Source: Megasphaera sp.
GTDB taxonomy: Bacteria; Bacillota; Negativicutes; Veillonellales; Megasphaeraceae
Reading direction: 5' to 3'
Assembly (NCBI GenBank): GCA_022641375.1
Contig: JALCDF010000011.1
Location: 1 to 40,008 of the forward strand
DNA: 40,008 nucleotides
Of this stretch, positions 29,158-38,793 are shown piece by piece (position 1 is the stretch's first letter; every line of letters starts with the position of its first letter). Under the pieces are notes generated by a model. That model had not been told where the DNA came from and searched no databases. It saw only the letters and a program-made list of their open reading frames with translations. The position numbers and the translations under genes were made by a program.

Positions 29158-32100
29158 TTAATCCTGATTAGTTTTTAGTACTGTCGTATCTGATTCAGGA
29201 ACTCCACTGGAAGACATGTCAACGGGATTGCCATTTTCATCTTCGCAAGAGATGGATGGTACGCATTTCACAACTTTAACCTTACGATAACGGCTCATAC
29301 CGGTACCTGCAGGAATCAGTTTCCCAATAATAACATTTTCCTTGAGTCCCAAAAGCGGATCCACTTTACCTTTGATAGCCGCATCAGTAAGGACACGAGT
29401 TGTTTCCTGGAAAGAAGCCGCTGATAAGAACGAATCTGTTGCCAACGCTGCTTTTGTAATCCCCAGAAGCATCGGTTTACCGATTGCTGTCTTACGGTGG
29501 TTCGATTTAAGCCGGAGATTGGTATCTTCAAATACATTGACATCTACATAATCACCTGGAAGCATATCCGCATCACCGGCATCTTCAACTTTCATCTTAC
29601 GAAGCATTTGACGAACAATAACTTCGATATGTTTATCGTTAATGCCAACACCTTGTGACTTATAGACCTTCTGTACTTCATACACCAGATACCGCTGCGT
29701 TGCTTCAACGCCAAGGATACGCAGAATATCATGCGGGTTGATAGAACCAGATGTAATACGGGTTCCCTTGGTAATCACATCCCCTTCATGAACAACGAGG
29801 TGCGAACCATACGGAATCGTATAACTTCGTTCTTCCCCGTCGGCGTTCACAACGTGCACGATGTGAATATCATGATGTTCTTCTTTTTCGGTAATAGAAA
29901 CGGTACCATCAATTTCCGTAATAATAGCATTGCCCTTCGGTTTACGTGCTTCAAACAATTCTTCGACACGTGGAAGACCCTGGGTAATATCACCAGCAGA
30001 AGCAACCCCGCCCGTATGGAACGTACGCATTGTCAGCTGTGTGCCAGGTTCACCGATGGACTGTGCTGCAATCGTACCGACGGATTCACCAACATTGACC
30101 TTGCCGCCTGTACCCAGGTCACGGCCATAACATTTTGCACAAACACCATACCGGCTGCGGCAGGTGAGGACAGAACGAATCCGCACTTTCTTATAATATT
30201 TAGCGATTTCTTTAGCCTGATCCGCCATGATTTCTTCATTCAGGGCAACAATGATTTCACCCGTATCCGAATTTACCAGCGTTTCTGCCGCCGTACGACC
30301 TTCAATCCGGTCTTCCAACGGTTCTATGACGCCATTTCCTTCTACGATAGCCGTCACTTCGACGCCACGGATATCATTATTGCGGACTTTGACTTCCGTT
30401 ACATCACTATGCAGTACATGTTCAATGGCATCTTCCGTAAGCGGCGTTCCTGCGGCACATATTTCTATACCATTAGAATCAACTACTGCCGTTTCTATCG
30501 TTTTGCCAAGCATGTTTTCTACCATGGATTTACGGATAGCTTCTCTGAATCCTTCTTCCGGAGCACCTAATGATACAGTTTCAATGACATTGGTATGATT
30601 CATATCATCATTGATATCCATCTGGCTTCCCCGTAAATACAGCTTGGGAATTTCATGTTCGATAACCGTATCCATATCATCATTTGTAAGCAAATGATCT
30701 GCTGGGAAAACGACTTCTCCCGTTTCCGGATCCATGATATCCCGAACCAGGACACGGCCAATCAGTTTGTCTCGCAAGAGATTGACAGCCTGACGGCAGG
30801 AACTGGCCAAACGGGCCCGTTCACGAACGAGATCGATGCCAAAAACATCGCAGTCTTCTTCGCGGACGATTACATCCTGGGAAACGTCGACAAGACGACG
30901 TGTTAAATATCCGGAGTCAGCTGTACGTAATGCCGTATCAGCCAATCCTTTACGAGCCCCGTGACTGGATGTGAAATAGTCCAATACGGACAACCCTTCA
31001 CGGAAGTTAGCCTTAATCGGCAAGTCGATAATACGACCGGATGGATCCGCCATCAAACCACGCATCCCGGCAACCTGACGAATCTGCTGTTTATTACCAC
31101 GAGCACCAGAATCAGCCATCATAAAGATTGAATTGAAAGGATCCATGTTATCCATCATGGCTTCCGTTACTTTATCCGTAGCTTTTTCCCATAATGCACA
31201 GGTCTTACGATACCGTTCGTCTTCAGTAATAATACCACGCTGATACATTTTGGTGACATTCAGTACCTGTTTATCTGCCGCATCCAGTATATCCCATTTT
31301 TCGGACGGAATCTGGATATCGGAAATGGCAATGGACATGCCGGCCTGACGAGCATAATGATAACCGATTGCTTTAATCCGGTCCAGCAATTCTGCCGTCT
31401 TGGTGTTACCGGCAAGATGGAAACAATCATCAACGAGTTTGCCGATCTGTTTCTTGTTCATAAGAACACCAAGGCAATCTACATCGACATATTCCCTGCC
31501 CTTTTTAAATTCAGCCACTTCATCTTTATTGATTTTATGGTTTGGCAGAGGGCGTTTAGCCAATAAATCTACGCCAAACTTTTCTTTTAATGCTGTGAAA
31601 CCATAATCCCTGATTTCGCCATTTTCTCTAATCTTAATGAGATGCGTAGAATCTATGACATTATGTTCATATGCATAAAGCGTATCTTCCGGATTATCAA
31701 ATACCATGATTTTATCCGTATGATATAAACGCAGTGGTTCATACAACTGATAATTATAGAGAAGTTTGCCTGCTGTCGTTTCAATACGGCCATGATCCGG
31801 GATACGAACCTTGATGAGTGCTTCAATATCGATTACCTTGGCATCATATGCCAGCATCACTTCATCATAATCCGAGAAGATTTTTCCTTCTCCTTTTGCT
31901 CCCGGCTTGACCAGTGTCAGGTAGTACGCCCCAAGAACCATATCCTGAGTTGGTACGGCTACTGGTTTCCCATCTTTTGGTGCCAGGATATTATGAGACG
32001 ACAACATGAGGGTACGAGCTTCCGACTGTGCTTCTACGGATAACGGCAGATGACAAGCCATCTGGTCTCCATCGAAGTCAGCATTGAATGCAGTACAGAC

Positions 32101-33423
32101 CAACGGATGCAATTTGATAGCCCGGCCTTCCCAAAGGATAGGTTCAAATGCCTGGATACCCAAACGATGCAATGTAGGTGCACGGTTCAACAATACCGGA
32201 TGTTCCTTGATAACATCTTCGAGGACATCCCATACTTCATTACTTACCCGTTCAACCTTTTTCTTGGCATTTTTAATATTAGTCGCAATGCCTTTTTCGA
32301 CGAGCTTCTTCATGACAAACGGTTTGAAGAGTTCAAGAGCCATTTCTTTCGGCAAGCCGCATTGATGCATCTTTAATTCCGGACCAACAACGATAACGGA
32401 ACGACCAGAATAGTCAACACGTTTGCCGAGCAAGTTCTGACGGAAACGACCTTGTTTCCCTTTAAGCATGTCAGACAAAGACTTCAGCGGGCGATTTCCC
32501 GGACCGGTTACAGGACGACCGCGGCGGCCATTATCAATAAGAGCATCGACAGCTTCCTGCAGCATACGTTTTTCATTGCGGACAATGATATCCGGAGCAC
32601 CCAATTCCAACAGACGGGTCAACCGATTATTACGATTGATGACCCGGCGATATAAATCATTCAAGTCAGATGTTGCAAACCGGCCGCCATCAAGCTGTAC
32701 CATCGGCCGCAATTCCGGCGGAATGACCGGAATGACATCCATGACCATCCATTCCGGCTTATTTCCGGAATGGCGGAATGCTTCTACGACTTCCAAACGA
32801 CGGATAGCGCGAACACGCCGCTGTCCGGAAGAATCTTTAAGTTCTTCCCGTAAATCCTTATCAAGTTTTTCCAAATCCAAGCCCTGAAGGAGCTCTTTTA
32901 CCGCGGCAGCACCCATTCCAACCCGGAATTTATCACCATACATATCCAGGTACTGGCGATATTCCGATTCTGTCAGTAACTGCTGTTTTGCTAAAGGAGT
33001 ATCTCCCGGATCCAATACGATATAGGAAGCAAAATATAATACTTTTTCCAACGAACGCGGCGAAATATCAAGAATCAAGCCCATTCGGCTGGGGATACCT
33101 TTAAAATACCAAATATGAGAAACCGGTGTAGCCAATTTTATATGGCCCATCCGTTCACGACGAACTTTGGCACGTGTAACTTCAACGCCACAACGATCGC
33201 AAACGACGCCTTTATAACGAATGCGTTTATATTTGCCGCAATGACATTCCCAGTCCTTTGTCGGGCCAAAAATGCGTTCGCAGAACAGACCATCCCGTTC
33301 CGGTTTCAATGTACGATAATTGATTGTTTCCGGTTTCTTGACTTCACCATGTGACCATTCCAAAATTTTTTCCGGAGAAGCCAGGCCAATCCGCATGGAA
33401 TCAAATTCGTTCACATCAAGCAC
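29158..33423 (-). CDS. rpoC: RNA polymerase beta' subunit
   Basis: The 1421-residue catalytic clamp subunit of RNA polymerase. The N-terminal zinc site is C60, C62, C75, C78. The active-site magnesium triad is in NADFDGD (about residue 448). The second zinc site is in [13 protein letters not shown] (about 1090), and the trigger loop and bridge helix lie before it. Start is GTG, eight bases after GGGAG. It begins 26 bases after rpoB and ends at a 15-bp terminator. The length is somewhat above B. subtilis RpoC (1199), in keeping with other Negativicutes and clostridial proteins that carry insertions. Confidence 0.98.
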
Positions 33424-37235: not shown

Positions 37236-37304
37236 GCTGATTCTTCACCCCTTATAAAAGTAACCCATTATGATAATGAAGTATAAAGCATTACATAAAG
37301 CGAC

Positions 37305-37342
37305 AAAAAAGCAAGGCTCTCAACCAAACGTGAACCTTGCTT
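37305..37342 (-). terminator. Terminator-like hairpin between tyrS and rpoB (candidate attenuator)
   Basis: On the minus strand AAGCAAGG (37335-37342) pairs with CCTTGCTT (37309-37316), an eight-base perfect stem with an 18-base loop, followed by T6 (37305-37310, overlapping the stem end). It lies about 70 bases downstream of the expected start of the rpoB promoter at 37419-37447 and about 70 bases before rpoB. It can end tyrS transcripts, act as an attenuator for rpoBC, or both. Confidence 0.7.
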
Positions 37343-37418
37343 AATTTTTGCTCTCCGGAAGCTTTCCCCCATATATCCATAATATCAATTATATTAATTG
37401 AACATTTTGCAATAAGTT

Positions 37419-37447
37419 ATTATATCACTATGGGCATGTGATGTCAA
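37419..37447 (-). promoter_or_regulatory. Perfect consensus promoter upstream of rpoB
   Basis: Minus strand TTGACA (37442-37447), 17 bases, TATAAT (37419-37424): all twelve bases match. The transcript would start near 37412, 20 bases beyond the tyrS stop, and run about 177 bases to rpoB through the hairpin 37305-37342. The leader also contains a small GGAAAGCTTCC palindrome near 37363-37373. Confidence 0.88.
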
Positions 37448-38764: not shown

Positions 38765-38793
38765 ATTATACCTATCAAGCCAAATCCCGTCAA
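38765..38793 (-). promoter_or_regulatory. Promoter of tyrS
   Basis: Minus strand TTGACG (38788-38793), 17-base spacer, perfect TATAAT (38765-38770). The -35 box is only 13 bases past the fbp stop codon. The leader is about 38 bases, far too short for a T-box. No terminator is seen between fbp and this promoter. Confidence 0.85.

Follow-up and report, generated by a model that had tools for sequence, protein, structure and literature searches.

A conserved terminator-type hairpin in the rpoB leader of Megasphaera, a probable attenuator of rpoBC

How the amount of RNA polymerase is controlled is a long-standing question that has been studied mainly in E. coli. The rpoBC locus of a Megasphaera sp. 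raises it in a concrete form, as a terminator-type hairpin stands between a perfect promoter and rpoB. Does this hairpin regulate rpoBC, and if so, by which means? The locus lies in a window of 40,008 nt, i.e. the whole stretch of DNA that was analysed, from a 73-contig draft genome that is 78.8% complete. As rplL is found on another contig (C26, with rpoB on C11) and tyrS is directly upstream of rpoB, rpoBC is located outside the rplKAJL cluster. The 231-nt gap between tyrS and rpoB on the minus strand harbours, in this order, the promoter, the predicted start, the small hairpin P1, the terminator-type stem, six Us and a final 69 nt that include a strong ribosome site (Table 1). tyrS is itself preceded by a near-perfect promoter, TTGACG-17-TATAAT (window 38765-38793, minus strand).

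Table 1. Positions in the window of the rpoBC genes and of the leader elements upstream of them.
Feature	Positions	Strand	Basis
Sigma-70 type promoter, TTGACA (37447-37442), 17-nt spacer, TATAAT (37424-37419)	37419..37447	minus	exact consensus
Predicted start region, start about 37412, first bases AACTTATTGCAAAATGT	37402..37418	minus	start placed solely by distance from the -10 element
P1 hairpin GGGGGAAAGCUUCC, 5' of the terminator	37357..37370	minus	folded; GG.GG invariant in alignment A1
Terminator-type hairpin, stem AAGCAAGGUUC / GAGCCUUGCUU, 11 pairs	37309..37342	minus	folding, conservation, profile searches
U-tract UUUUUU	37305..37310	minus	invariant in 17 leaders
GUCGCUUU immediately 3' of the U-tract; GUCGC invariant in the genus	37297..37304	minus	alignment A1
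GCUUU, possible partner of the P1 loop AAAGC (37365-37361)	37285..37289	minus	suggestive only
Shine-Dalgarno AAGGGG of rpoB	37248..37253	minus	sequence; invariant in alignment A1
rpoB, RNA polymerase beta subunit, 1261 aa	33450..37235	minus	beta subunit confirmed by Pfam
rpoC, beta-prime subunit, directly 3' of rpoB	29158..33423	minus	named from its sequence

An earlier note on this DNA had described a perfect TTGACA-17-TATAAT promoter, an intrinsic-terminator-like hairpin behind it, about 70 bases from there to rpoB and, in between, only a weak promoter candidate, and this description proved accurate throughout. The promoter is the sole exact match to the consensus in the window; with up to one mismatch there are five matches versus 0.41 expected, a number reached in 0 of 100 shuffles. 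We then compared 17 Megasphaera-type leaders (alignment A1), from the 15 genus genomes searched, the present one included, and from loci L097 and L176. The main promoter scores 11-12 of 12 in all 17, and the start region ACT.ATTGC (ACU.AUUGC in the RNA) is invariant. Widely in rpoB leaders of Negativicutes and Clostridia the first transcribed bases (AUUGC, AAUGC, AAUGGCAU) look conserved. In the Veillonella-type leaders L109, L110, L111, L113 and L115 the promoter TTGACA lies within the 3' arm of the terminator hairpin of the upstream gene (GUCAACCCUUUUGGUUGACAG), so that terminator and promoter have bases in common about 255 nt upstream of rpoB.

The weak candidate behind the hairpin, TTGTCG-15-TATACT, scores 9 of 12 and is not kept in the other Megasphaera leaders. 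A second conserved rpoB promoter is absent from the 17 leaders, where the best candidates behind the hairpin reach 7-10 of 12, at shifting positions. Set against the main promoter, these scattered scores weaken the second of two readings offered in the earlier note, in which the promoter makes a separate RNA of ~105 nt and rpoB is started elsewhere. The related explanation that a stand-alone ~105-nt RNA acts in trans, with read-through into rpoB incidental, can draw on its own promoter and terminator, the right size and the conserved 5' bases and P1. We consider it distinctly improbable, as besides the missing second promoter the element remains beside rpoB and the sequence past the terminator is conserved or covarying.

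The terminator-type hairpin has a predicted free energy of -15.9 kcal/mol, and when the 177-nt leader is shuffled with its dinucleotides preserved, an equally good one arises 4 times in 1000. It ranks best among the upstream regions of 30 ORFs tested in the window; a simple terminator scan with a loop limit of 8 did not list it. The leader as a whole folds somewhat better than shuffles (z -2.1, and -2.8 for the part up to the hairpin). A GC-containing stem is directly followed by the U-tract, as in an intrinsic terminator, and, as in an attenuator, the terminator comes after the promoter and before its gene, rpoB. In A1 the stem, U-tract and GUCGC tail are near-invariant, and little or no change is seen in the AAGCAAGGUUC block, the GAGCCUUGCUUUUUUGUCGC block, the start and the ribosome site, while the loop, the flanks and the stretch after GUCGCUUU vary.

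To which gene does the hairpin belong? Its place downstream of tyrS would suit an insulator that only ends transcripts from tyrS and so shields rpoB. Yet tyrS is separated from the hairpin by the perfect promoter, and the hairpin is retained where the upstream sequence is other than tyrS (L085, L094 and L095), which assigns the element to rpoB and leaves pure insulation barely probable.

This assignment raises the question of how far the hairpin is conserved with rpoB. Most of the Negativicutes examined have a GCAAGG/CCUUGC hairpin before rpoB; a strict pattern finds it in 86 of the 117 distinct loci (L081-L204; L131, which has no apparent rpoB start, was counted as a miss). The leaders of this class sample mostly show the same order of promoter, leader, hairpin, U-tract, about 50-260 nt and rpoB, with six to eight Us in the U-tract. 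Loci outside the strict pattern have ACAAGG forms, a different terminator-type hairpin before rpoB (L184, 60 nt; L192, 96 nt; L129, 60 nt) or none that was found. A profile trained mostly on class sequences (R1) gave some match at E<=0.1 in 175 of 200 class genomes. Among the matches listed at E<=1e-6, 24 of 26 lie just upstream of rpoB, as judged by comparing positions by eye, and the two others are G107:C11 and G069:C12.

The search for covariation in the hairpin proposed in the earlier note gave a divided answer. From 96 diverse cores we used 93 (alignment A2), as the stem finder had taken the wrong arm in L077, L165 and L204. The helix is paired in 89.7% of cells versus 86.5 in shuffles, and slid versions reach 60.1% at most. 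Doubly changed cells number 45 versus 21.6, with 0 of 500 shuffles as high. Two further measures, on which relatedness has less influence, stay at shuffle level for the 93 cores, with 5 versus 4.4 pairs showing double changes (207/500) and 18 versus 17.3 pair types (206/500).

The element can also be followed into the rest of the phylum. In many Clostridia-type genomes AAGCGAGGUU..AACCUUGCUUUU occupies the same place in the leader. As GCGAGG/CCUUGC with about four Us, the core was found by pattern in 43 of 108 Bacillota loci, the base of the count, with leaders coming from a part of the 119 genomes; 50 shuffled sets averaged 0.14 and never exceeded 2, the antisense strand gave 2, and the pattern is absent from the other 65 loci. 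A profile built from pattern-picked Clostridia-type rows (R2) yields 30 matches at E<=1e-6 in 30 of the 119 genomes, and each of the 30, as compared by eye, is placed immediately upstream of rpoB in the same orientation; since most of these are training sequences, the informative part is that nowhere else in the 119 genomes scores as high. At E<=1e-3 a match beside rpoB is present in 44 of 119 genomes, again by eye, and matches weaker than 1e-6 include other sites as well, e.g. G304:C1:3217187, G312 and G285. R1 places a match next to rpoB in only 6 of 119 phylum genomes (five via tblastn, G209 via coordinates), and most of its other matches there are ordinary terminator-like sites elsewhere. 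The narrow distribution that this count suggested was dropped after the phylum leader sequences had been read. About 105 nt before rpoB, Paenibacillus leaders often carry another terminator-type hairpin, GCUCUU..AAGGGC-UUUUCUUU.

Promoter, hairpin and U-tract thus recur in one order and are conserved with rpoB. As judged from its sequence, the feature in the window exemplifies a leader element of rpoB that is widespread and apparently old, and that accompanies this gene in Negativicutes and many Clostridia. We conclude that the hairpin is probably an intrinsic terminator inside the rpoBC leader, i.e. a promoter-proximal attenuator of rpoBC. Of the two readings in the earlier note attenuation is the better one, and it is supported in part: the position of the terminator speaks for it, and the hairpin is deeply conserved together with rpoB and not with the gene upstream.

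Does the hairpin serve termination at all? It might mainly be a processing or stability element in the read-through mRNA, such as an RNase III-type site or a 5' stabiliser, with little termination. Several observations are consistent with this. In many Clostridia the U-tract has only about four Us and would make a weak terminator. The stem, moreover, is conserved past the need for pairing. In 48 phylum rows picked by pattern (alignment A6), a choice that inflates letter conservation, pairing is 97.3% versus 96.6 in shuffles, covariation is 0.151 versus 0.137 (9/500), and a G.U pair within the stem is kept in 44 of the 48 rows. The stem letters, and not pairing alone, appear to be held across these rows and to be conserved beyond what a terminator needs, an effect that the choice of rows enlarges. 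In several Clostridia (L233, L239, L069 and L032) the minimum-energy fold extends the helix beyond the U-tract, and the title of a 1980 paper couples attenuation and processing at E. coli rplJL-rpoBC. The U6-U8 tracts of the Negativicutes and the replacement of the hairpin by other terminator-type hairpins in some lineages, however, favour termination, and we regard a mainly processing role as unlikely. The lengthened hairpin is seen in L039 as well as in the four loci above (e.g. CAUAAA..UUUAUG), and the near-continuous helix predicted for these five could be an RNase III substrate.

The same explanation gains from a structure that reaches past the terminator in one family (f16, 14 distinct leaders, Acidaminococcaceae-like at a guess). 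Here the P1 loop pairs with a stretch about 20 nt past the U-tract in a covarying 7-bp pseudoknot. It is paired in 95.8% of cells versus 85.1 in shuffles, slid versions reach 53.7% at most, and there are 14 doubly changed cells versus 4.5 (0/500); pairs with double changes number 4 versus 2.1 (31/500) and pair types 10 versus 9.2 (161/500). Binding is also stronger between a loop and its own partner (-9.07 kcal/mol) than after partners have been swapped (-6.70 kcal/mol), with 0 of 5000 permutations as strong. As this pairing needs post-terminator sequence, it cannot decide termination and must matter in the read-through RNA, which on this evidence appears to be structured itself. A pseudoknot around the terminator could there steer processing, stability or translation after read-through. 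For the 15 distinct Megasphaera leaders the corresponding pairing is not significant (own -6.21 versus swapped -5.62 kcal/mol, p 0.094; p 0.149 without the GUCGCUUU part), and for Sporomusaceae, where a crude pattern cut the loop, the values are -1.06 versus -1.37 kcal/mol (p 0.90). The f16 leaders (e.g. L160) further contain a second covarying hairpin upstream of P1, with a conserved CAGUGGUUG-type loop (columns 34-57 of alignment A3).

On the attenuation reading, transcription would start near 37412 at the perfect promoter, some polymerases would stop at about 37305 and free an RNA of about 105-108 nt, and the remaining ones would read through into rpoB and rpoC. Termination would then be partial, and its efficiency would respond to some signal. 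The earlier note had found no clear antiterminator, and our search agrees. Duplex searches of the leader against both terminator arms gave weak, species-specific pairings only; the best with the 3' arm range from -5 to -12 kcal/mol and involve segments that differ by species. A helix scan of four clade alignments revealed nothing else strong in Megasphaera. As no common alternative pairing that would form a mutually exclusive antiterminator was found in Megasphaera, we do not class the element as a switch-type attenuator (riboswitch, T-box or leader peptide).

A leader peptide that couples translation to the hairpin is brought to mind by some relatives. In the Pectinatus leaders L010, L011 and L014 and in several Selenomonas-type leaders a short ORF, judged by eye, ends with its stop in the hairpin loop. 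No such ORF is kept in A1, again by eye; the frames differ among species, and L007 has no stop in the loop, so that this coupling seems very improbable. The Selenomonas-type leaders concerned are L015, L017, L019, L117, L118 and L120; the stop-in-loop ORFs of both groups (e.g. MKYYEIKRARCEK, MRKRKGTGSKV) cross the 5' arm of the hairpin and resemble leader-peptide attenuation.

As we see neither an antiterminator nor a riboswitch or leader peptide in Megasphaera, the likeliest signal for the attenuator would be polymerase itself, by analogy with E. coli, acting via the rate of transcription through the leader or via elongation factors such as NusA and NusG. Control by the level of polymerase may be proposed on the same analogy. 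Its most direct form, in which the leader RNA senses RNA polymerase, the conserved hairpin contacting the enzyme or a Nus factor and free enzyme setting termination, would amount to autogenous control of rpoBC; we rate this as decidedly unlikely.

Known systems offer several parallels (PMC2864571, PMC7724050, PMC13236596, PMC2659441, PMC6181997 and PMC1242208). In E. coli, a partial terminator just before rpoBC limits transcription of beta and beta-prime, and both the frequency of transcription and rifampicin are reported to affect it. Both elements lie shortly before rpoBC, with partial termination presumed here. The E. coli terminator follows rplL within the ribosomal operon, as the earlier note had correctly stated, whereas in Megasphaera a dedicated promoter precedes the leader that contains the hairpin, and rplL and rpoB do not share an operon. 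That the Megasphaera attenuator works like that of E. coli is the best reading, and the same probably holds for the closer parallel that the earlier note had missed, the Lacto-rpoB motif (RF01709) of Lactobacillales, mentioned once, in a table, in the paper that names it. For cyanobacteria, a conserved element before rpoBC (cluster 245) is predicted computationally, and its authors regard it as the equivalent of the E. coli attenuator; it is likened to ours by description, not by sequence. The mycobacterial rpoB leader likewise controls rpoBC from its own leader region, with a two-promoter mechanism instead: promoter I acts on promoter II through a conserved inter-promoter stretch, and the authors report no evidence of upstream read-through. 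Our literature search, with subscription papers mostly outside its scope, recognised no paper on the rpoB leader in Negativicutes or Clostridia, and the word 'rpoB' is absent from the main text of a Sporomusa Term-seq paper (PMC12456013).

The leader hairpin, conserved alongside rpoB in much of the phylum, offers a defined element for mutation and testing. Since in E. coli rifampicin reportedly alters read-through into rpoBC, the element could also matter for the drug response of anaerobic gut bacteria.

The Lacto-rpoB leader looks like the same arrangement in other letters. It lies just after the promoter, the motif beginning about 10 nt after TATAAT in L335, and a terminator-type hairpin, CAGCAGUUAAAUC..GAUUUARCUGCUCUUUUUGUG, comes directly behind the motif in the three loci that we read (L333, L335 and L336). 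Sequence and hairpin differ from ours, which stays below the curated cut-off of RF01709: the leader in the window gives no match at E<=10, and none of 60 genomes of the order matches at E<=0.001, while 12 of 200 genomes from the class to which G226 belongs contain the motif. The element is filed under rpoBC attenuation and is not a member of RF01709. Rfam at gathering and permissive thresholds returned nothing relevant for the window, 20 class leaders and 12 phylum loci; the sole match in these 12 loci is an ordinary L10 leader (RF00557) at L250:3359-3499 on the minus strand.
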